The notes under the pieces are model-generated. The model saw only the letters and a list, made by a program, of their open reading frames with translations. It made no database searches and was not told the origin of the DNA. DNA of 37,553 nt, taken from assembly GCA_900258555.1 (NCBI GenBank), contig LT984856.1:72557-110109 (forward strand), read 5' to 3'. Origin of the DNA: an uncultured Desulfobacterium sp. Lineage in GTDB: Bacteria; Desulfobacterota; DSM-4660; Desulfatiglandales; Desulfatiglandaceae. The position numbers and the translations under genes are program-made. Positions 126 through 34,364 of the stretch are shown piece by piece. How positions within the stretch are numbered: the stretch's first letter is position 1; every line of letters begins with the position of its first letter.

Positions 126-707
126 TTGTCATGGTCAGCTTTGGCCCGATTTCAATCCATTTTTAAAAAACATCATATTTCGACTATACAACGACCATGG
201 GTGCGTTTAGTTGCAAGGACCATTGACTATATGCTGACTGCTTCATGCTTACAGATTTTAGGATTTAACACTATCCTTCTGACGACAGAGTTCTCTTGGA
301 TCCTTTTCCCGATTTTTTTGGTCACTGCATGGATAATTATTGAGGCCGCCTTTTTGAGCTTATTCGGCTGCACTCCAGGAAAATGGCTATTGGAAACAAC
401 TGTATATGATATATTCCAACTTAAACCAACATTTTCAGGGGCGCTAAGAAGGAGCATTTCTGTCTGGTGCAACGGCATAGGTATGGGTGTTCCATTTATT
501 GCCCCTGTTACCATGGCAATTTCATATTACCGAATTAAAAAAAAGGCTCTAACATCATGGGATAGTGACGGCAGATTTTCAATCAGGCATGAAGAAATCG
601 GTAAGATCAGAATATCTTTCATCATAATACTTTTTATTATAATGATATATTGTCTTGCCAGAAACAAATCTAATACCGTATCAATTTTTTTGGGGCACTT
701 TTTTTGA
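126..707 (+). CDS. RDD family integral membrane protein
   Basis: This is a 193-residue RDD-domain membrane protein; the family is poorly characterised and some members have been linked to ion transport. An Arg-Asp pair lies at the start of the first membrane segment (ARTIDYML, about residues 30-37). The family signature GCTPGKWLL follows near residue 81. There are hydrophobic segments at about 35-55, 57-78, 115-133 and 163-178. The start is TTG at 126, the first usable start after an in-frame stop at 81-83; the ATG at 131 is in another frame, and no strong ribosome binding site is seen. The gene converges on the PilZ gene and their 3' ends overlap by 38 bp. The family call is good; the function is unknown. 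Confidence 0.8.
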   Translation: MSWSALARFQSIFKKHHISTIQRPWVRLVARTIDYMLTASCLQILGFNTILLTTEFSWILFPIFLVTAWIIIEAAFLSLFGCTPGKWLLETTVYDIFQLKPTFSGALRRSISVWCNGIGMGVPFIAPVTMAISYYRIKKKALTSWDSDGRFSIRHEEIGKIRISFIIILFIIMIYCLARNKSNTVSIFLGHFF

Positions 708-1407
708 AAAATTCTCTTTGAAGTCCATATATCAGTTCCCTCAAGGCGCTGAGATCCTTTTTAGACATTGAAATAAACTGGAGTCCAAAGCGATAATTTC
801 CCGGTCTTGATTTGCTGCTCGACCTGATTATCAATGCTTGGTCTACTTTAACCTCAATCATTTTTCCGTCTGATTGGGTGATCAATGTAACATCCTTCAA
901 TATAGTCCCCGGCTCAAAATTATGAGCACGATTTTCGTTTTCATTAAACCTATCAAATTCAGCAAAAACCCCGCCCATGCTAATGTTGATAACATTCATT
1001 GCAAAATTAATTTCATCCAGTCTAAAAAATATCCTTGATCCCTGTGGAATGGACAATCTGAAATCTTTTCTTCGCAGAACAGCTGAAATGGATTTGGGGA
1101 AAATAAGATGGATGGAATTTTCTAATATTTTTTTTACAGAGGTTATAAACTCATATGGGGATCCATCTGATGAGCTAAATTCAAATTTTATATTGCACGC
1201 ATCCAGCCCAATTACTTCCTCTTTAAATCCAGTTGGTGATTTAATGACAAAACAGGGGATATCATCTTCAGTCCTGAGCTCTGTGACCGTGGTCACTTGC
1301 TCATAATCCTTTCCCAGGATCACCAATTTTATGGGCTTTCGGCCAGATCTAAGGTCATCTAGGGCGCTGAATCTGCTACTTCCCGTAATCCTTTTCTGCT
1401 TCTCCAT
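670..1407 (-). CDS. YcgR-like two-domain PilZ protein
   Basis: A 245-residue cytoplasmic protein predicted to bind cyclic di-GMP. The C-terminal half is a PilZ domain. It has the RxxxR motif (R113 and R117 in RRKDFR) and, after a short strand region, the NxSxxG motif (N141, S143, G146). Both elements needed for nucleotide binding are therefore intact. Residues 20-105 form a beta-rich N-terminal domain in the position of the YcgR/PilZN flagellar-brake domain; that assignment rests on architecture. It is the last gene of a leftward cluster, 30 bp after the MinD-like gene, and probably acts as its cyclic-di-GMP effector. Its 3' end runs 38 bp into the RDD gene. Confidence 0.85.
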   Translation of the reverse strand: MEKQKRITGSSRFSALDDLRSGRKPIKLVILGKDYEQVTTVTELRTEDDIPCFVIKSPTGFKEEVIGLDACNIKFEFSSSDGSPYEFITSVKKILENSIHLIFPKSISAVLRRKDFRLSIPQGSRIFFRLDEINFAMNVINISMGGVFAEFDRFNENENRAHNFEPGTILKDVTLITQSDGKMIEVKVDQALIIRSSSKSRPGNYRFGLQFISMSKKDLSALRELIYGLQREFFKKSAPKKLIRY

Positions 1408-1437: not shown

Positions 1438-2637
1438 TTAACCTGCCTTACTCCTCTCAAGAAAGGCCTCAAAATCAAGGGGAATAATTGTAGCCTCGCT
1501 GTTTGAAGTGTCAATACAGTTTTCAACATTCTTTGGTGGTTCTATCCTGCCATTTTCCATAATTTTTCTGATAGCGCCAATATCTTGAGATATGCAGGAA
1601 ATATGTTTAACAAGGCCATCCAACAGGTAATGGATTCCATGCATTAGATCCTGATTCTCAACTGCATCTGTATTAACTACGGGGATGTCATTTGCATTTT
1701 TTTCAAGGGCATTACTCCCTTCGTCCCTTTCATCAGCAGCATCATTAACAATCAAAATCTTTTCCTTTTCAGGGACCTGACCCTGAATGTTACTTTGTTC
1801 TCCTGTCGCCTTAGACCCGGACATCTTAAGGGGGCAACTAAAAACTTTCAAGAATCTTGTCCAGAAGGCATCTATTCGAAAGTCCTCAATGTTATCCGTC
1901 TTTTTATTTATGAGATGTTTGGCAATGCTTTTAATGCAGCTTGAGGCAATGGAATTAGGATAAAGATGAATAAAGGGTTTCTGTTCCTTAACAGCCTTGA
2001 CGACGTTCTCATCCTGCATCACCGCACCAAGAGGCACAACCTTAATAGGTAAAAATTTTTGGACGGTTTCCTTAAATTTTGTAAAAACCATTTTTGCGTT
2101 TTCGATATTTTTGCTGTGGTTTACGGTAACCATTACAGAATTTTTGTAACCATTGATAGATAGAATTTTAAGCAGGGAATATGCATCAGTCAGAGAAGTC
2201 GGCTCAGGTGTGACGAGCAAAATCACCTCTGAGGAAATCATACAAAACGATATGACATTCTTGGAGATACCGGCGGACGTATCCAAGACAAAGTAATCAT
2301 ACCTGCCCTTCAATTCAGAAAAAGACTTCACTAAAAAATCAAGCTTGTCCTCCTCAAGATTTGCTATCCTCTCAACTCCGGAACTGCCTGGGATAATATC
2401 AACCCCTTTGTAGTTCTTAATCAAGATATCATCAATACTCTTACCATTTAATATAACATCCGTAAGATCATGTTCTGGATAAAGCCCAAAAAGGATATTT
2501 ATATTGGCGAGTCCCAGATCAGCATCAAAGAGACACACGCGATAACCCAGACTGGCTATATACAGAGCGAGATTGCCGCTGATGTTTGTCTTGCCTACCC
2601 CGCCTTTTCCGCTGGTGATGGTAATTAGCCTTGACAT
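1438..2637 (-). CDS. MinD/FlhG-like P-loop ATPase with C-terminal extension
   Basis: A 399-residue ParA/MinD-superfamily ATPase, a group of switches that position flagella, pili or division sites. The deviant Walker A motif SGKGGVGKT is at 9-17, with signature lysine K11 and P-loop K16. It is followed by FDADLGLANINILFG and a Walker B-like FVLDTSAGIS. These resemble FlhG/FleN more than ParA. The N-terminal DQAxxLR segment by which FlhG stimulates FlhF is absent, and no flhF is nearby. After about residue 265 there is an unrecognised tail of about 130 residues: a polar acidic linker, then a helical-looking stretch near 325-350. It overlaps the upstream MshEN-repeat gene by 13 bp, which suggests translational coupling. 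Confidence 0.85.
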   Translation of the reverse strand: MSRLITITSGKGGVGKTNISGNLALYIASLGYRVCLFDADLGLANINILFGLYPEHDLTDVILNGKSIDDILIKNYKGVDIIPGSSGVERIANLEEDKLDFLVKSFSELKGRYDYFVLDTSAGISKNVISFCMISSEVILLVTPEPTSLTDAYSLLKILSINGYKNSVMVTVNHSKNIENAKMVFTKFKETVQKFLPIKVVPLGAVMQDENVVKAVKEQKPFIHLYPNSIASSCIKSIAKHLINKKTDNIEDFRIDAFWTRFLKVFSCPLKMSGSKATGEQSNIQGQVPEKEKILIVNDAADERDEGSNALEKNANDIPVVNTDAVENQDLMHGIHYLLDGLVKHISCISQDIGAIRKIMENGRIEPPKNVENCIDTSNSEATIIPLDFEAFLERSKAG

Positions 2638-3992
2638 TGAACGGTCTCCTTATCAGACGCCTGGACATTATTCATCCGACTGCTTTCTACAATTGGAGCG
2701 GCGAGTATTTCTACCTTTCCATTTCGTCCTTCAATATAGAATGAAATATTGCTGCAATGAAACTTGCTGCATATGGTATTGAAATTATCTATAATAAATT
2801 CTTTGAATAATGCCTCATTAACGTCTAGGCCTTCTCCACCAAGTTCCATCTTTAAATTTTTGTATTTTTTATATAGCCTGTCAATTATCACTCTGTCAGT
2901 AGCATTTGATAATACTACCTTATCTTGCCAAACAGCAGCCCGTTGGTCATTAATATCCAAAACCTTTGATGTATCCAACAGTTCCCCATATAGAATCGAG
3001 AAGAGTTGCTCGAATTTTTCATCGGTAATCAACATACAGTTTATCCTGATATTGCTTTTTAGAGACTTTAATTCATCAACTATTTTGATTCTTGACGGGT
3101 TTGATATAGCCACTGTCAAGTTACCGCCATTTAAGAACAACGGCAGAACTAGTTTTTCTTCAGCATACTTCTGCCCTATCAGGTCTCTGAGTGATGCCTT
3201 TTGTTTTTCATAAAAAATAAAGCCATCAAGATTATAAAACGGGATGTTGTACTGAACTGACAGAGCATAATAGAGCTGATCAACCGTAATAATACTTCTT
3301 TTGACCAGAATCATGCCTAAGGTTTCGCCCTTGTGGTTTTGCTCACTAAGCACCTTTTCCAAGGTAGACCTGTCTATGATATCCTGCTGCAGCAAGATCT
3401 CTCCAAGTCTAAGCCTTTTATTATATCGTTGAAAGACTAGATTCAATTCTGAAAGAGTAATAAGATTCAAGTCACAAAGGATTTCCCCAAGTGCCCTCTT
3501 ATACCTCTTAAATCTGAATGCATCCTCAAGTTCCTGTTCGGTAATCATATTGAGCTTTAGGGCAAGCTTTCCAAGTTTAATACCATCGAGTCTTCTCTTA
3601 AGTAGGTCTTCCAGTTCATTCTGACCGATAATACCCTGTCTGACCAGCACTTCACCGATGCCTTCATTATTTTTTTTCTTGTTGAGAGATTCTCTTAGCT
3701 TAAGTTCACTGATGACCCCGCTTTTTATTATCACAGACTCAACTTCTTGTTGAATATCAGGATGCAACATCAACATTTTGAGTTGTTCTTCTGTAAGAAA
3801 TCCTTTTTTGACAAGGATCATACCAAGTGGCATTTTTATTTCTTCAGACTCTTTTTTCTGAATATCGATGGCCTTTTTCAGTTTTTCTTCCTGCAAAAAA
3901 CCTTCTTTGACCAGCAGTTCCCCAATCTTTAAGGAAGGCGGGGTCTTTTCAGAGTTTATATTTATCTTCTTTTGCGTATTACTTAGTACCAT
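2625..3992 (-). CDS. Tandem MshEN-type repeat protein without ATPase domain
   Basis: A 455-residue protein built from the N-terminal module of type II secretion/type IV pilus ATPases (GspE/MshE-N). About eight copies of a 26-28-residue motif (pattern LGxxLvxxgxIxxxxLxxaLxxq) fill residues 22-249, beginning near 22, 55, 83, 111, 139, 167, 195 and 224. The last copy runs into the usual second half of the module (IPFYNLDGF, then a stretch near 260-340). No Walker A or B motif follows; the final 100 residues are unrecognised. In MshE two such motifs bind cyclic di-GMP, so a sensor or scaffold role is inferred. ATG 3992 was chosen; an in-frame TTG at 4010 would add six residues, and neither has a clear ribosome binding site. 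Confidence 0.8.
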   Translation of the reverse strand: MVLSNTQKKININSEKTPPSLKIGELLVKEGFLQEEKLKKAIDIQKKESEEIKMPLGMILVKKGFLTEEQLKMLMLHPDIQQEVESVIIKSGVISELKLRESLNKKKNNEGIGEVLVRQGIIGQNELEDLLKRRLDGIKLGKLALKLNMITEQELEDAFRFKRYKRALGEILCDLNLITLSELNLVFQRYNKRLRLGEILLQQDIIDRSTLEKVLSEQNHKGETLGMILVKRSIITVDQLYYALSVQYNIPFYNLDGFIFYEKQKASLRDLIGQKYAEEKLVLPLFLNGGNLTVAISNPSRIKIVDELKSLKSNIRINCMLITDEKFEQLFSILYGELLDTSKVLDINDQRAAVWQDKVVLSNATDRVIIDRLYKKYKNLKMELGGEGLDVNEALFKEFIIDNFNTICSKFHCSNISFYIEGRNGKVEILAAPIVESSRMNNVQASDKETVQCQG

Positions 3993-4046
3993 AATCAGAC
4001 AACTTACCAAGAGCTATTTAATTTGCTTAGGAAGCACCATCAATAA

Positions 4047-5192
4047 CTATGACTGCAAGGCAAACGAATCTCCATCCTGATAATGTGAATCACGAATATC
4101 TTCCCGATTCGATCCGGCCTCATCCTTAAGCTTATTGGCCTCCATTAATATCATCATAAGAGGTTTATTAATTTCTTTCTTTTCCTTCCTGCAAGTATCT
4201 TCAATTTCGATTAGACTGTTTTCCCAGGAGATAATCTGATATGCCGCTTTTTCCCCTTGCAGGTCATCTGTCTCTGCATCAATTAGCCCGCCTTTCAAGA
4301 AATACATTTGGCCGGTTCTGTGATTTGATTTTACCGTCAGAGTACATGTCTTCTCTTCGACTTCAACCAGTTGGAGAAATGCGGAAGTGCTTATACCGTG
4401 GATCTGTCCCCCACCTCTGTTTAACTCATCATATACCATCTCCGTTAGTACCTTTGTGTCCAACGGTTTTTCCATATACCTTGCAGGGCCATAAAGTTTT
4501 CTTATTCGTTCTTCCACCCCGTTAGAAATAGACCATGCCATAACAATTACGGGTATTTTTGGATAATTGTCCTTTAAATAGGATAGAAGCTCAAACCCGT
4601 TCATTTCAGGCATCTCCAAGTCAGTTATCAACATGTCAATTTTCATAATATCCAGGATCTTTGCAGCCACTTTTCCATTCTCAGAAGTCAATACCCCATA
4701 CTCCGCATAACCTTTCAGAGTGCTTGATATTATTGATCTTACATTAGGATCATCATCAACAACCAAAATTTTTCTAAGCGGACGTGGTTTATTCGGATCT
4801 TCATCCTCAATATTAATGTTCATTTTATATTGTTGAATTCCTGCATTCAGAGCCATTGACAATACATGGGACTTAAAAGGCCTGATTAAAAACCTGAAAA
4901 TCCTCCCGTCATTAACCGCCTTAATAGCAGTTTCCAAATGTTCCTGACCAATAAGGAGTATACAGGCTATAGGGAAAAAGACCTCCGTTGCGCGGCCAAG
5001 AAACGTCAGGCCGTCCATTCCCTGCATGGTGATATCCGCAACGACGACTGCATGTGGTCCATGATTTGTAAGTTCTTCAATGCCCTGTTCAATACCAAGG
5101 GCTGTCACAATCGTAAATTCACTCTTTAGATCCCTTTGGAAAAAATCCAGAACTCTTGCATCATCATTTACGAGCAACACCTTATCTGTCAT
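4047..5192 (-). CDS. Double-receiver response regulator with PATAN (DUF4388) domain
   Basis: A 381-residue regulator with two receiver domains and no DNA-binding domain. REC1 (2-120) keeps the acidic pair D10/D11 and phospho-acceptor D53. The switch Thr is I81 and the conserved Lys is R104 (FLIRPF), so REC1 may not signal conventionally. REC2 (139-255) has D146-D148, D191 in the sequence TDLEMPEMNG and K242 in EKP; its switch Thr/Ser is A219. Residues about 260-330, including GQMYFLKGGLIDAET, match the PATAN/DUF4388 protein-interaction domain, followed by a charged tail. It is the first gene of the leftward cluster, with a purine-rich ribosome binding site (AGAGGGAG) just upstream of the ATG. 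It probably receives a phosphorylation signal for the downstream proteins. Confidence 0.85.
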   Translation of the reverse strand: MTDKVLLVNDDARVLDFFQRDLKSEFTIVTALGIEQGIEELTNHGPHAVVVADITMQGMDGLTFLGRATEVFFPIACILLIGQEHLETAIKAVNDGRIFRFLIRPFKSHVLSMALNAGIQQYKMNINIEDEDPNKPRPLRKILVVDDDPNVRSIISSTLKGYAEYGVLTSENGKVAAKILDIMKIDMLITDLEMPEMNGFELLSYLKDNYPKIPVIVMAWSISNGVEERIRKLYGPARYMEKPLDTKVLTEMVYDELNRGGGQIHGISTSAFLQLVEVEEKTCTLTVKSNHRTGQMYFLKGGLIDAETDDLQGEKAAYQIISWENSLIEIEDTCRKEKKEINKPLMMILMEANKLKDEAGSNREDIRDSHYQDGDSFALQS

Positions 5193-5668: not shown

Positions 5669-5724
5669 CATTAGGTTAGACATGTTTTCATATGCTAAAT
5701 GTTTGCATGTTGGAGATAACTTTC

Positions 5725-6084
5725 ATGAGACCTGATGAAAGAAGGAAATATCCGCGAATAAAAACCGACAATCTGATGTCTTATGCCTGCACAGACGATA
5801 CCGGGCAAGAACTGAACCAAGGGATTGGGACTGCTCTGGACATAAGTCAGGGAGGGTTGCTCCTTGAAAGCCATTCGCCTATTGAGGCGAAAAAGATCCT
5901 GCTGACCTTTATTGACCCTGACAATGAATTCTTTGAGATTAACGGCGAAATTGCCTATTGCAAAGAAATCAAGACAGGAATGTTTCAAACGGGGATACGC
6001 TTCTCCGAAAATAATAAAAATATAAGAAAAGCTATTGTTAGTATAGTAAAGACATATAACGTACAAAAACAATCAGAAAAATAA
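5725..6084 (+). CDS. Single-domain PilZ protein
   Basis: A 119-residue protein that is almost entirely one PilZ domain. The cyclic-di-GMP motifs are complete: RxxxR (R7 and R11 in RRKYPR) and DxSxxG (D39, S41, G44 in DISQGG). ATG 5725 is preferred over in-frame ATGs at 5692 and 5707 for two reasons. GGAG at 5712-5715 lies nine bases before it, and homologous domains usually begin with this RRxxPR segment. The gene is transcribed away from the REC/MshEN/MinD/PilZ cluster and is probably a small cyclic-di-GMP adaptor. Its partner cannot be read from the sequence. Confidence 0.85.
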   Translation: MRPDERRKYPRIKTDNLMSYACTDDTGQELNQGIGTALDISQGGLLLESHSPIEAKKILLTFIDPDNEFFEINGEIAYCKEIKTGMFQTGIRFSENNKNIRKAIVSIVKTYNVQKQSEK

Positions 6085-23126: not shown

Positions 23127-25565
23127 ATGTCAAGGAGGCCATTAATTCCCCTTGCTGTCTCTCTTGCCGCTGGCATTCTTTTCGCACACAACACATTTTC
23201 TGACAGCCGGCCAATAATGCCCCTCCTTCTTTCGGCCTCAGCGATCTTATTGCTGGTAACGGTTAAGACATCTCCTTGGCTCAGAATACCATGCCTGGTT
23301 ATCAGCTTTTTTTTGACCGGCGCTTTTTTGGATGTATGCACACACATTCCTTCAGTGCTCCTCCCCCTTGCCAATGAACACCGGCACGTTGTAATTCAAG
23401 GCACTATTCTTGAACCGCCTAAAATTTCTGAAGGAACAGCCAGGATAACTATTCAGGTCCACACGGTGTTTATGGGAGATGTGGCTACTGCCCTGGACGA
23501 AAAGATCATCGCCACAGTTTACAGTAATATCCCTGCATTAACGCCTTGTGAGAAGATCCGCTTCCCAGCCAAGCTCCGGCCCTTCAAAGGATTCAATAAT
23601 CCCGGCCGTTATGACTATGAATCTCAAATGAAAATAAATGGCTTTTCTTGCGCCGCATCCGTATCTGACGGCAGATATATTGTGTCTGAGGGCCGGGGGA
23701 ACCTGCCTCTTTATCGTGAGGTCCTGGAAAAGTTTAGGATGCCGATAAGGACTTTTTTCACACAAAACCTGGACCCTGAAGAGGATGCCATCTATAGCGC
23801 AATCATTCTGGGAGAAACCCATAAAATAAGTCCTGATCTGAGGGAGTCATTTAATCAAACAGGACTCAGCCATTTGCTTGCAGTCTCAGGCCTTCATATT
23901 GCCCTGGTTGCATGGCTTGCTTTTTTTATCTTTAAATGGTGTCTTTCAAGATCATATAGCCTGACCCTTAAGATTGATATAAAGAAGTATGCCGCAATCC
24001 TTACCTGTATTCCCGTCATTGGCTACAGCCTGATCGCAGGATTCCAGGTGTCATGTCAGAGGGCGATGATCATGGGGCTTGCATTTCTCCTTTCAATGAT
24101 CCTGGGAAGGGAAAAAGAGACATGGTCCACCCTTGCACTTTCAGGACTTGTGATACTGACCACAGATCCCCATGCCATACTGGGCCTGTCTTTTCTGCTT
24201 TCATTTGGTGCAGTGATAGGTATCCTCTGGCTGAACCCGGTTATAATGAAAACAGCACCTGACCTTGATGAAGATAGAACAAAGACCATTCGGCATCACA
24301 TCTACCTGTATTTTGTAGGCCTTGTTTCTGTATGCCTTTCTGCGACAATATTTCTGCTGCCGATTATTGTATATTATTTCCATAATATTTCCATTGCATC
24401 AGTTCCTGCAAATGTAATGACGGTTCCCATTATTGGGCTGTGGGTGCTCCCCCTGGGGCTGCTCTCTGTTATGGTATTGCCTTTTTCCGACTTGCTTGCC
24501 GGTCTGCTGCTCCACCTCGGCGCATGGGGTCTGGGGCTTATGATGGATATCATACGCTTCTGGGCAAGCCTTTCCTGGAGCAGCATCTGGGTAGTAACTC
24601 CAAATGTTTTTGAAATATTTTCGTACTACGCCCTTTTGTTTTGTCTATATTTTATAAGACATTCCAAGTGGGCAAAAATCGGGTTCGCCGCCCTCACACT
24701 CATACTGATCGCTGACATTGGATTTTGGGTAAACAGGGTTTATTTCAATAAGGATCTGAGGGTGTGTTTTATTGATGTGGGCCAGGCAAGCGCCGCCCTG
24801 GTGGAATTTCCGGGCGGCAAAAAGATGATGATAGACGGTGGCGGTTTTTCCCGCGACACCTTTGACGTGGGCCGGATGGTCGTCGCCCCTTTTCTATGGC
24901 GACAAAAAATATCCAGGATACATTACATTGTGCTGAGTCACCCCCAGGCTGACCATATGAACGGGCTGAAATTTATCGCGAGGGCATTTCATCCGGAGGA
25001 GTTCTGGCATAACGGTGACATGGTTTCCACACAATCATTCAAGGACCTTTTGTATATTGTTGAAAAGAATAATGTCAGCAGAGTCCTGCCAAAGGACCTT
25101 ACAGGTGGAAGGGATATCAACGGCGCACTGGTGGAAGCGCTACATCCGGTTGTACATGAAAGTTCATCACAGGCCTTTTATGCTGAGACAGACCTGAACA
25201 ACAATTCCCTGGTTCTCAAAATCTCCTTCCATAAAAAATCATTTCTCTTTCCAGGCGATCTGGAAAAAAATGGTGAGAACTCACTTATCTCAGAAGCGAA
25301 CATATCTCTTAAGAGCGATGTCCTGCTATCGCCCCACCATGGGAGCAAGACATCAAACACTGAAGGGTTTCTAAAGATGGTTGCACCAAAGATATGTGTG
25401 ATATCATCTGGAGAAGGCAATTTTTTTGGCTTTCCGCATAAAGAGGCCTTAGAAAGACTACAATCTGCAGAATGCAAGATTATCCGAATAGACCAGTCAG
25501 GGGCGGTGCAATTTACGGTGGGTGAAGAAAATCTTGAGTTTACCACATTTTTTGGCTCAAGATGA
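23127..25565 (+). CDS. comEC: ComEC/Rec2 family DNA-uptake channel protein
   Basis: An 812-residue inner-membrane protein with the full three-part ComEC layout. It has an N-terminal membrane and DUF4131 region (about 1-200) and a polytopic Competence domain (about 220-520, with LLAVSGLHIALVAW and QVSCQRAMIMG). A C-terminal metallo-beta-lactamase-like domain (about 545-805) has IDVGQASAALVEF, LSHPQADHMNG, LLFRS-type core strands and LLSPHHGS. In competent bacteria it translocates single strands across the membrane; the MBL domain is a proposed nuclease. ATG 23127 follows murA by one base; upstream in-frame codons lie inside murA. Its last 9 bp overlap the convergent PilZ-dehydratase gene. Confidence 0.95.
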   Translation: MSRRPLIPLAVSLAAGILFAHNTFSDSRPIMPLLLSASAILLLVTVKTSPWLRIPCLVISFFLTGAFLDVCTHIPSVLLPLANEHRHVVIQGTILEPPKISEGTARITIQVHTVFMGDVATALDEKIIATVYSNIPALTPCEKIRFPAKLRPFKGFNNPGRYDYESQMKINGFSCAASVSDGRYIVSEGRGNLPLYREVLEKFRMPIRTFFTQNLDPEEDAIYSAIILGETHKISPDLRESFNQTGLSHLLAVSGLHIALVAWLAFFIFKWCLSRSYSLTLKIDIKKYAAILTCIPVIGYSLIAGFQVSCQRAMIMGLAFLLSMILGREKETWSTLALSGLVILTTDPHAILGLSFLLSFGAVIGILWLNPVIMKTAPDLDEDRTKTIRHHIYLYFVGLVSVCLSATIFLLPIIVYYFHNISIASVPANVMTVPIIGLWVLPLGLLSVMVLPFSDLLAGLLLHLGAWGLGLMMDIIRFWASLSWSSIWVVTPNVFEIFSYYALLFCLYFIRHSKWAKIGFAALTLILIADIGFWVNRVYFNKDLRVCFIDVGQASAALVEFPGGKKMMIDGGGFSRDTFDVGRMVVAPFLWRQKISRIHYIVLSHPQADHMNGLKFIARAFHPEEFWHNGDMVSTQSFKDLLYIVEKNNVSRVLPKDLTGGRDINGALVEALHPVVHESSSQAFYAETDLNNNSLVLKISFHKKSFLFPGDLEKNGENSLISEANISLKSDVLLSPHHGSKTSNTEGFLKMVAPKICVISSGEGNFFGFPHKEALERLQSAECKIIRIDQSGAVQFTVGEENLEFTTFFGSR

Positions 25566-27878
25566 AGAAACCTTTTCGGATGCGGTGTAATTTTCTATGA
25601 AATATTCCAATTGATCTTTCTGGTGTTGCGTCAATTCTCCGAATTGGACGCTGAACCTATGAGGCTTATTTGTGTCTGGAGAGCAGGTAGCTGATGCCCT
25701 GTAATGTGAGACTATCCTGCATGGTATCTCTTCCAGGCTAAAGCCGCTGTCGGCCATGCTTATAGCAAGTCCCGCATATCCCTTTGTCATATCATCAGTC
25801 CCTTCGTAATAGAACGAAAGACCGCCTCTGCCTATATCACGGATCTTGCAGGATCTTAACGGCTTAATATCAGGGATAATAACTGATCCGTTTATCGGCC
25901 TTAGGCGTTTATCCTTCCTGCGATCAGGGAAACACAGACTGAATTTTCCTCCCTCGGCTTGTTTCCCTCTCCCGGATATTTCCCTCCCGTTTTCCATATT
26001 GAACTCAGGCAGTATCTCACGAAGTTTCTTCCTTATCCCGTCACTATCCTGGATATCCGCCAGACGATCCAGCTCGTTGATCTGACTATCAAGCTTAGCC
26101 TGGTCGCAGGGTTTCCCTTTAAGGACCATAATCTTTTTATGACCTGTCGGTTCAATGCCTTCGCCTTCCGTAATCAACTCCTCGTAAAGCTTTTCACCGG
26201 GCCTGAGCCCTATATATTCAATCTTGATATCTACATCCGGTTCATAACCCGATAGACGGATCAGGTCCCTGGCCATATCTACAATCTTTATCGGAGTCCC
26301 CATATCCAGGATAAATGTCTCACCTCCCCTGCCCATGGCGCCGGCCTGCAGGATGAGCTGACTGGCCTCGGGAATCGTCATGAAATACCGGGTGACCTCC
26401 GGATGTGTGACAGTAACCGGGCCTCCTTTTTCAATCTGTTTTTTAAAATAAGGCACTACACTTCCAACGCTTCCAACCACATTGCCGAAGCGAACAGCCA
26501 TATATCTGCCGCCCTCTGCGCATGATCCGTTCTGACAATGCACGAGGAGTTCTGACACACGCTTGCTGGCACCCATGACGTTAGTAGGTCTCACCGCCTT
26601 ATCAGTAGAAACAAATACAAAACGCCCCACGGAAAATTTCCCACATGCAGCTAAAATGTTTCTTGTCCCCAGGATATTGTTTTTAATCGCCTGCCAAGGC
26701 TGGATCTCCATCATGGGAACGTGTTTATAAGCGGCGGCATGGAAGACAACATCCGGTTTATATGCCTCGAAAATACATAATACCTGATTGGTATCACGTA
26801 TATCAGCCAGCACGGGATCAATGGCAATGTAGGGGGAGTTCCCCTTTAGTTCCAGTTCTATCTCATAAAGCGGGCTCTCTGCCCTCTCGAACAGGATTAT
26901 CTGCCTCGGACTGAACCGGCAAATCTGGCGACACAGCTCAGAGCCTATTGAGCCTCCGGCACCTGTTACAAGGACACTTGAGTCTTTAAGATATCCACCA
27001 ATGCTTGCCTGATCGAGCCTTACCTGGTCTCTGCCGATAAGGTCATTGTAATCCACCTCACGAATAGATTTTACAGTAACCGTGCCGTTTATCAGTTCCC
27101 CCATGCCCGGTACAGTCTTATAAGGTATGCCGCTGCCCTCGCAGGCTGCCACGATGGTGCGCATCTGGCTGTATGTGGCCGATGGGATTGCAATTAATAA
27201 CTCTTCAATCTCCAGTTTTTCCGTAAGAAATTTCAGATCCCTGGTCCTACCCAGAACAGGGATGCCGTGTATAAAGAGTTTCGCCTTTGCGGGCATATCA
27301 TCAATAAAACCCACTATATTATAGCCCAGATGTGGATTATCGTGGATCTCCCTTGTTATCTTCTCACCGCAATCTCCTGCTCCGATAATCATCAGCCTCT
27401 TGCCCTTGCCCCGATGGACAAAAATGGAGGGCAGAAGTCCCAGCCCCTCAAAAGGCGTTTGCGTCTGATTGGGCGACAACCAAAAGAATAAGCGGATGGC
27501 CACCCTGCAACCTGAAATCATCAAAAATGTCAGGCACCAGTCAATTACAAAAACAGAATGGGAAAAATCCGCGGTATTGTATATAAACAGTGTTGTCAAA
27601 AAGACAGCAATGCAGCCGACACTGGTTCCCTTTAAGATATTCAATAGATCAGTCAAGCTGGTATAGCGCCACATCCCTTGATAAAGCTTGAAAAAATTAA
27701 AAATCAGGATCTTGATGATTATTACAAGCGGGATAGTCGCAAAAGTGACGAATTCGGCATCATTTGGAATTGAAAAATTAAATATCAAAAGGTGGGAAAA
27801 GTACCAGGCAAGGCCGATCAGAATAATATCAAATGTCAAAACAATGAGGACATTCTTGTGAAGATAGCGTTTACCCAC
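25557..27878 (-). CDS. WbpM/CapD-type nucleotide-sugar 4,6-dehydratase fused to a PilZ domain
   Basis: A 773-residue inner-membrane enzyme. Residues 1-135 hold about four transmembrane segments. A Rossmann-like domain follows (RLMIIGAGDCGEK near 162), then the catalytic SDR domain (about 295-590) with VTGAGGSIGSELCRQI, AAAYKHVPMME, STDKAVRPTNVMGASKR and VRFGNVVGS. This is the WbpM/PglF group, usually UDP-GlcNAc or UDP-sugar 4,6-dehydratases for O-antigen or capsule. Unusually, residues about 650-765 form a PilZ domain: RxxxR is R654/R658 (DRRKDKRLR), and the second motif is DIGRGG (D681, G686, with Gly in place of Ser), then HRFSVQFGEL. Allosteric control by cyclic di-GMP is inferred. The start is GTG 27878 with GAGG upstream. 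Confidence 0.9.
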   Translation of the reverse strand: MGKRYLHKNVLIVLTFDIILIGLAWYFSHLLIFNFSIPNDAEFVTFATIPLVIIIKILIFNFFKLYQGMWRYTSLTDLLNILKGTSVGCIAVFLTTLFIYNTADFSHSVFVIDWCLTFLMISGCRVAIRLFFWLSPNQTQTPFEGLGLLPSIFVHRGKGKRLMIIGAGDCGEKITREIHDNPHLGYNIVGFIDDMPAKAKLFIHGIPVLGRTRDLKFLTEKLEIEELLIAIPSATYSQMRTIVAACEGSGIPYKTVPGMGELINGTVTVKSIREVDYNDLIGRDQVRLDQASIGGYLKDSSVLVTGAGGSIGSELCRQICRFSPRQIILFERAESPLYEIELELKGNSPYIAIDPVLADIRDTNQVLCIFEAYKPDVVFHAAAYKHVPMMEIQPWQAIKNNILGTRNILAACGKFSVGRFVFVSTDKAVRPTNVMGASKRVSELLVHCQNGSCAEGGRYMAVRFGNVVGSVGSVVPYFKKQIEKGGPVTVTHPEVTRYFMTIPEASQLILQAGAMGRGGETFILDMGTPIKIVDMARDLIRLSGYEPDVDIKIEYIGLRPGEKLYEELITEGEGIEPTGHKKIMVLKGKPCDQAKLDSQINELDRLADIQDSDGIRKKLREILPEFNMENGREISGRGKQAEGGKFSLCFPDRRKDKRLRPINGSVIIPDIKPLRSCKIRDIGRGGLSFYYEGTDDMTKGYAGLAISMADSGFSLEEIPCRIVSHYRASATCSPDTNKPHRFSVQFGELTQHQKDQLEYFIENYTASEKVSSS

Positions 27879-32966: not shown

Positions 32967-34364
32967 CTAAACTGTGCCATCACCGCGCCTGAGCGTCACA
33001 ATAACCACCTCAGCCATGCAATTGAACCTGACAGGTATACCTGAAGCTCCTGCCCCGTATGTGGTATAACCAACCATGTCGTCATATCGCCACAGCCCTG
33101 CTGTAAACCTGCGGGCAACCCTGCTGTGCGTGAAAAGCGGCCCTATGACCGGCAGACAGATCTGGCCGCCATGGGTGTGGCCGCAGAGGCATAGATCAAT
33201 TTTTCTTCCTTCGGCATATTCGATGATCTCCGGCGAATGGGCGAGCAGGATAGAAAAGGCATTTTCCGGCACCTCTTCAAAGGCCTTATCAAGGTCGCTG
33301 CATTGATAGTAATGGGGATCATCCGTGCCCACGATACTCAGCAACTGGCCATCTCTTTCCAGGGTATAGGAGTCGTTGATCAGCATGTAGATTCCTGAAT
33401 CCTCCAATTCCGGAGCGATCTCCAGACAATCGTGGTTCCCCAGTATTCCGAATACCCCGTCCTCTGTGTTTATGTGTTTTACCAGTTCGCCTAGTTTTTC
33501 GTTGGCCGCGGTGAACCTTCCATACATCTCCATCCTGTAGTCGCCGCCCAAAAGGCAGATATCTGTCTTGATCCCTGAGACCAGATCAATCAAACGCTCC
33601 TTTAGGCCTTTAAGGCCGTCAATATGGAGATCGCTGATAAAGAGGATGCGATATCCGTTAAAGGCCTCGGGAAGGGTGGGAAAAGAAAGATCAATGGATC
33701 TTATCCGAATCCTGAGGGCATTTCTCTCCCCCTTGCCATAGACACCAATACATTTAAAGACCCCCTTCATGAACCAACGGTAATATATGAAATTCTCAAA
33801 ATTGAGGAGTCGAACAAAAGGTGAAAGCGCCGTATGACACGACCTCCATTCGCGAAAGCGCGACGACGACCGCACCGTATAGGGAGGCGACTTTCTTCGG
33901 GGCGCAGCCGGTATTTTGGTAAACTTGGAGAACACCCAACAGACAAGTATAAATATTAAAAGGACCCCAAAGGCACTACCACATGAGAGCAGACCGCCAA
34001 GGCAAAGAAGAAGAAGAGGAAAACCGCCTTCAAATACCTGATCCAATATTGCAACATCGGTCCCTTCGGGAAGGCCGAGCCTGCGTTTGATAAAACTGGA
34101 CAGGATATCTCCCATCATGCTCAGAAGACCGACACAAAGGCCCATTACAAGTGACAGACCGATAAGATACCCAAAGATGCCGCCGGTCAGGACGCCGGAC
34201 AAAAGACCCCTGATGGTCTTATGAATCCCCAGAATCGGCAAGCCGTCGGAAAGGCTGTAATTTCTATCCAACGGGACGCCGGCATTCCCGGGAAAGATGC
34301 GGCCTAAGAGAGCCGGGACGCCGTTTATTGCAAGTATCAATATCAATACATTTACGGTGTTCAT
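32967..34364 (-). CDS. Fusion of CarS-like (CDP-archaeol synthase family) membrane domain and metallophosphoesterase
   Basis: A 465-residue two-part protein. Residues 1-150 are a membrane domain matching the CarS/PF01864 pattern: FPGNAGVPLDRNYSLSDG, LGIHKTIRGLLSGVL, GDILSSFIKRRLGL and DQVFEGGFPLLLL. CarS-type enzymes form CDP-activated lipid alcohols from CTP. Residues about 215-460 are a YkuE/LpxG-like metallophosphoesterase with FISDLHIDG, LGGDY, ILGNHD, LLAHSPE and CGHTHGGQ, so all metal-binding motifs are intact. A basic linker with Arg-rich segments joins them, placing the phosphatase on the membrane surface. AAGGTG precedes the ATG. The joint substrate is not known; a lipid nucleotide or lipid phosphate is inferred. 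Confidence 0.82.
   Translation of the reverse strand: MNTVNVLILILAINGVPALLGRIFPGNAGVPLDRNYSLSDGLPILGIHKTIRGLLSGVLTGGIFGYLIGLSLVMGLCVGLLSMMGDILSSFIKRRLGLPEGTDVAILDQVFEGGFPLLLLCLGGLLSCGSAFGVLLIFILVCWVFSKFTKIPAAPRRKSPPYTVRSSSRFREWRSCHTALSPFVRLLNFENFIYYRWFMKGVFKCIGVYGKGERNALRIRIRSIDLSFPTLPEAFNGYRILFISDLHIDGLKGLKERLIDLVSGIKTDICLLGGDYRMEMYGRFTAANEKLGELVKHINTEDGVFGILGNHDCLEIAPELEDSGIYMLINDSYTLERDGQLLSIVGTDDPHYYQCSDLDKAFEEVPENAFSILLAHSPEIIEYAEGRKIDLCLCGHTHGGQICLPVIGPLFTHSRVARRFTAGLWRYDDMVGYTTYGAGASGIPVRFNCMAEVVIVTLRRGDGTV

Follow-up and report, generated by a model that had tools for sequence, protein, structure and literature searches.

In the structures of Vibrio cholerae MshE and of the GSPII-B domain of Thermus thermophilus PilF, c-di-GMP is contacted by two motifs with 5 residues between them, through position 1 (R, in the extended consensus R/K/L), Leu2, Gly3, Leu17, Leu21 and Gln24 (PMC5013675; PMC11731258). 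Gly10 of the MshE motif is conserved for the turn. PilF carries several MshEN modules per protein, not all of them competent, and repeats whole GSPII domains together with their C-subdomains while keeping its ATPase. An MshEN domain is also found outside a secretion ATPase in NfrB of E. coli, a c-di-GMP-activated membrane glycosyltransferase. Neither arrays of MshEN motifs nor MshEN domains outside ATPases are new. The literature searched held no description of motorless MshEN array proteins, which does not prove that none has been described. In particular, we did not find described a conserved motorless clade that derives from an eight-motif pilus-type ATPase and is paired with a second FlhG-type ATPase.

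Here we analyse such a protein of 455 aa, encoded in a stretch of 37,553 nucleotides (the window) from an uncultured Desulfobacterium sp. (contig LT984856.1). Its motifs 7 and 8 (M7-M8) together with the C-subdomain are similar to the MshEN domain of MshE (PF05157, 5HTL) in sequence motif, 5-residue spacer and fold (model residues 193-337, Z 16.2). Unlike MshE, the window protein has no ATPase after this domain, six additional hairpins before it, a Thr at position 1 of M8 and a replaced Gly10 in both motifs. The best structural match of the same residues is c-di-GMP-bound PilF GSPII-B (8pdk/8pfa, Z 17.0, rmsd 1.9 over 136), but in the window protein the hairpins alone are repeated. With NfrB it shares the occurrence of MshEN outside a secretion ATPase (a local profile match), while a glycosyltransferase domain is absent. 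The neighbouring gene encodes an ATPase of MinD fold whose closest solved relative is FleN (5j1j, E 2.7e-52) and which may have a partner protein of its own, in the way that FlhG is partnered by FlhF. In contrast to FlhG/FleN it has an extra conserved tail, and the genome's own FlhG-FlhF pair is located elsewhere.

Results

Architecture of the MshEN protein

The product consists of eight motifs, the MshEN C-terminal subdomain, a low-confidence linker and a C-terminal domain (Table 1); an alternative start is possible at a TTG at 4010. Eight tandem MshEN-type motifs had been claimed from the sequence, and the claim holds. Motifs of 24 residues start at residues 22, 55, 83, 111, 139, 167, 195 and 224 (pitches of 33, 28, 28, 28, 28, 28 and 29) and span residues 22-247. 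A chain of eight motifs at this spacing scored 77 compared to a mean of 35.3 for shuffled sequences (sd 2.1, maximum 44, n=2000); the spacing was fitted to the same protein, and the score is to be read together with the NCBIfam c-di-GMP motif domain NF053729, which matched five stretches (E 1.7e-36). Pfam MshEN matched residues 265-337, i.e. the C-terminal subdomain after M8, in agreement with the original prediction that the second half of the N-domain follows the repeats without a Walker motif.

The lack of the secretion ATPase was likewise confirmed. Neither a Pfam match to T2SSE (PF00437, Walker A/B) nor a Walker A sequence was present in the 455-aa protein, and in the alignment with relatives of ~890 aa the linker residues 343-356 take the place of a PilB/GspE ATPase of ~450 residues. 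The C-terminal domain had been missed previously. Residues ~357-436 resemble MXAN_5187_C with an E of 0.003, under the cut-off of that model, and the alignment with the long relatives is firmer than this profile match. Pfam matches to DUF4388 and DUF2949 lie on the motif repeats and were read as repeat similarity instead of extra domains; the DUF4388 profile also matches the motif array of a long relative. Similarity to FumaraseC_C was dismissed as a local likeness of helical hairpins under the cut-off.

AlphaFold returned sixteen helices forming eight hairpins for the whole protein (mean pLDDT 76.5). Due to a pTM of 0.41 the relative placement of the domains is uncertain, and the overall shape is not fixed by the model. 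Residues 193-337 of the model comprise the four-helix bundle and the C-terminal alpha/beta subdomain of an MshEN domain. M1-M6 were also modelled separately (pLDDT 85.6, pTM 0.67). In a fold search with this region only MshEN-type bundles stood out. They matched 56-58 residues of M3-M4 at Z 7.5-8.6, the upper value (58 residues) being that of the four-helix bundle of MshE; such scores are modest for helical bundles. The predicted likeness of M3-M4 to the MshE bundle suggests pairing of the hairpins in the order 1-2, 3-4, 5-6 and 7-8.

Table 1 Features of the MshEN locus (window coordinates; res, residues of the 455-aa protein)
Feature	Coordinates	Strand	Remarks
PilZ protein, downstream in same gene run	670..1407	-	RKDFR and NISMGG (c-di-GMP-type motifs)
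FlhG/FleN-like MinD-family ATPase	1438..2637	-	overlaps MshEN gene by 13 nt
Conserved ATPase tail (helix and I-LDFEAF end peptide)	1441..1647	-	candidate docking peptide
Short-form eight-motif MshEN protein, 455 aa	2625..3992	-	start ATG 3992
C-terminal domain common to long forms, MXAN_5187_C-like, res 357-436	2685..2924	-	
Low-confidence linker, res 343-356	2925..2966	-	alignment with long forms; pLDDT < 50
MshEN C-terminal alpha/beta subdomain, res 253-340	2973..3236	-	Pfam MshEN 265-337; model res 193-337
MshEN motif 8, res 224-247	3252..3323	-	5/6 contacts; second half of likely c-di-GMP site
MshEN motif 7, res 195-218	3339..3410	-	6/6 contacts; first half of likely c-di-GMP site
MshEN motif 6, res 167-190	3423..3494	-	without Gln24
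MshEN motif 5, res 139-162	3507..3578	-	without Gln24
MshEN motif 4, res 111-134	3591..3662	-	without Gln24
MshEN motif 3, res 83-106	3675..3746	-	without Gly3 and Gln24
MshEN motif 2, res 55-78	3759..3830	-	Pro instead of Gln24
MshEN motif 1, res 22-45	3858..3929	-	6/6 contact positions; partner M2 degenerate, spacer 9
REC-REC-DUF4388 (PATAN) response regulator, upstream of MshEN gene	4047..5192	-	
Second PilZ protein, divergent from gene run	5692..6084	+	RKYPR and DISQGG

A candidate c-di-GMP site at motifs 7 and 8

Among the motif pairs of the window protein only M7-M8 combines a 5-residue spacer with six and five of the six contacts. L2, G3, L17, L21 and Q24, which together with this spacer characterise the c-di-GMP-binding MshEN domain, are all present in this pair. 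Position 1 is R in M7 and Thr in M8, the latter outside the R/K/L consensus, and Gly10 is replaced by Asp in M7 and by Ser in M8. M3-M6 are separated by 4-residue spacers and have no Gln24. From the residues and the modelled fold we infer that one c-di-GMP molecule binds between M7 and M8. Since no pair among the first six hairpins has both the contacts and the spacing, these look more like a structural scaffold.

Comparison of the window gene with that of a congener gave a dN/dS of 0.13 overall and of 0.084 for both motifs 1-6 and motifs 7-8, ratios that are rough with dS close to saturation. Purifying selection on M1-M6 fits a scaffold role and, for the gene as a whole, it is not what would be expected of a decaying relic or pseudogene.

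Long forms, short forms and loss of the ATPase

Related genomes contain two forms of the protein, a long one of ~880-915 aa and a short one of 424-455 aa. The long forms occur across the phylum and consist of the eight motifs, the C-subdomain, a complete PilB/GspE ATPase with GPTGSGK(S/T) and, in nearly all of them, the C-terminal domain. The six short forms (window, L041/L037, L038, L039, L040, L076) belong to four lineages and differ from the long ones by the missing ATPase and little else, and the spacer pattern 9-4-4-4-4-4-5 is common to both forms with the exception of one spacer in L040. The window protein itself shows the eight motifs, irregular pitch, C-subdomain and C-terminal domain that define the long-form family, all except the ATPase. 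The genomes positive in the initial searches gave a single match each; two long forms occur in G463, which was identified afterwards.

In a tree of the eight-motif region the six short forms lie on one side of a branch (100/100). A further tree, covering motif 5 to the C-subdomain and including shorter four-motif ATPases and ordinary PilB-type ATPases as outgroups, placed the short clade (100/99) among ATPase-bearing long forms, the nearest being L102/L118 (87/84). Since the short forms are one clade nested inside ATPase-bearing proteins, these sequence trees are most simply explained by one loss of the ATPase. A split gene with a relocated ATPase was considered and rejected: in the window's own genome the search found five PilB/GspE-type motors with 35-43% identity to the long-form query and neither an eight-motif ATPase nor any other eight-motif protein.

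All six short forms have six of six contacts in M7 and four to five of six in M8, with M1-M6 degraded and decaying further in the more distant members, while the final Gln of the long forms is found in M1 and M4 in 13/13, in M5 in 12/13 and in both M7 and M8 in only 5/13; these are counts of related sequences and not of independent events. Judged from the alignment, the motorless clade thus seems to have settled on M7-M8 as the relevant site.

Gene neighbourhood

An FlhG-like gene follows the MshEN gene in 6/6 short-form loci and in most long-form loci; it was not seen at the long-form loci L118 and L119. The true FlhG of the window's genome (G000:C3:43709-44491; L096:7686-8585) sits beside FlhF/FlhA about 30 kb away and holds the position in the flagellar cluster that the MshEN neighbour does not occupy. 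Therefore, the neighbour is a second FlhG-type ATPase. Its tail is conserved with 68% identity, compared to 28% in the linker preceding it. A 98-aa ORF (L050:4616-4912, -), located after a long form without MinD neighbour, is similar to the MinD-like partners solely in their C-terminal tail, which suggests that the tail is the part that goes with the MshEN protein. In a tree of the MinD neighbours the short clade appeared in 32% of the bootstrap trees and is not firm, and long branches meet there. The long form at L118 (5837-8191, +), which among the ATPase-bearing relatives is closest to the short clade, has neither the C-terminal domain nor a MinD neighbour. The MinD-like neighbour of the long form at L123 (8809-9954, +) has the P-loop SWKKNAGKT instead of SGKGGVGKT and is perhaps inactive.

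Upstream of the MshEN gene, a REC-REC-DUF4388 response regulator is encoded at 6/6 short-form loci, with only the end of the regulator on the contig of L039. We take DUF4388 to be a PATAN-type domain. L040 and L076 additionally encode a HATPase-REC-HDOD protein. A paper with interaction data puts forward the hypothesis that the PATAN regulator PixE binds the pilus motor PilB1 (PMC7690835).

Discussion

We consider it probable that an eight-motif PilB/GspE-type motor underwent a single loss of its ATPase and persisted as a c-di-GMP receptor or adaptor without motor function. Since it is encoded beside an FlhG-type placement ATPase, the window protein is probably a signal-sensing adaptor and not a motor. 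Trees, alignment and selection show a single loss from an eight-motif motor, after which the short form was conserved with its FlhG-like neighbour. A single c-di-GMP would be held between M7 and M8, while M1-M6 may serve as a helical-hairpin scaffold holding partner proteins. The putative partners are the REC-REC-PATAN regulator and the FlhG-like ATPase, the latter perhaps contacted via its conserved tail; this assignment follows gene order, which is no proof of interaction. The level of c-di-GMP and phosphorylation could jointly set where or how often the FlhG-like ATPase licenses a surface apparatus. Type IV pili would be the most likely target, with flagella as the alternative. A new two-input placement switch, in which degenerate hairpins of a motor-derived c-di-GMP receptor would scaffold a PATAN regulator as well as a second, dedicated ATPase of the FlhG type, is a tentative and rather doubtful extension. 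Points against the adaptor explanation are the Thr at position 1 of M8 and the loss of Gly10 in both motifs, the missing FlhG-like gene beside L118 and the lack of a firm short clade in the MinD tree.

The main rival explanation, in which the protein is a regulatory subunit or a decoy for a motor of pili or secretion, appears unlikely to us. The C-subdomain would dock on a PilM/GspL-like platform or join PilB assemblies, and the c-di-GMP-bound form would compete with the motors. In favour of a decoy, this subdomain resembles the PilZ-binding PilB-N of X. citri (7lko, Z 13.2) and the EpsL-binding N-domain of EpsE (2bh1), and the own genome has its five PilB/GspE-type motors. However, the likeness to EpsE is weak (Z 7.3 over 66 residues), and it is the FlhG-like gene that is constant in the neighbourhood instead of any pil or gsp gene. 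That the protein is a decayed pseudogene or an assembly artefact after deletion of the ATPase is extremely improbable: several motifs are indeed degenerate, but the same architecture occurs in six genomes from four lineages that form one clade, the frames are uninterrupted, selection acts on the gene and the neighbours are retained.

A multi-site sensor, with all four motif pairs binding c-di-GMP in a cooperative or buffering manner, would agree with eight recognisable motifs, with the complete set of contacts in M1, with the MshE-like bundle predicted for M3-M4 and with purifying selection on M1-M6. We nevertheless regard it as improbable, since M2-M6 have no Gln24, M3 also no Gly3, the spacers there are 4 or 9 instead of 5, the decay of M1-M6 goes further in distant short forms, and in Thermus PilF, too, one of three GSPII domains is non-binding (PMC11731258). 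The original prediction that a string of eight motifs could bind several molecules is therefore not supported, M7-M8 being the only pair with the required contacts. Its alternative of a scaffold is the more likely one for M1-M6, and their dN/dS of ~0.08 fits it.

The short forms are a clean case of a pilus or secretion motor without engine that is conserved together with regulators, and a natural experiment on the function of an MshEN array without motor. Long and short forms together allow tests of c-di-GMP binding at each of the tandem sites and of a possible second role of the repeats as a protein scaffold. The analysis also points to an additional FlhG-type ATPase, marked by its conserved tail, in many genomes of the phylum. 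If true, the two-input switch would be an example of a pilus motor turned into a signalling adaptor.

In agreement with the adaptor explanation, the own genome encodes five GGDEF proteins and PilB/PilT-like ATPases. It also has flagellar genes, and both PilZ proteins near the MshEN gene have the RxxxR and (D/N)xSxxG motifs. Elsewhere in the window, a CapD-type polysaccharide-biosynthesis protein (25557-27878, -) carries a C-terminal PilZ domain (residues 652-762), a fusion whose sequence suggests direct control of a sugar-modifying enzyme by c-di-GMP. An ORF at 32967-34364 (-) has a CarS-like first part (CDP-archaeol synthase) and a second part matching a calcineurin-like phosphoesterase, and at L046 (2121-3596, +) a receiver domain is joined to a phosphofructokinase-like domain.
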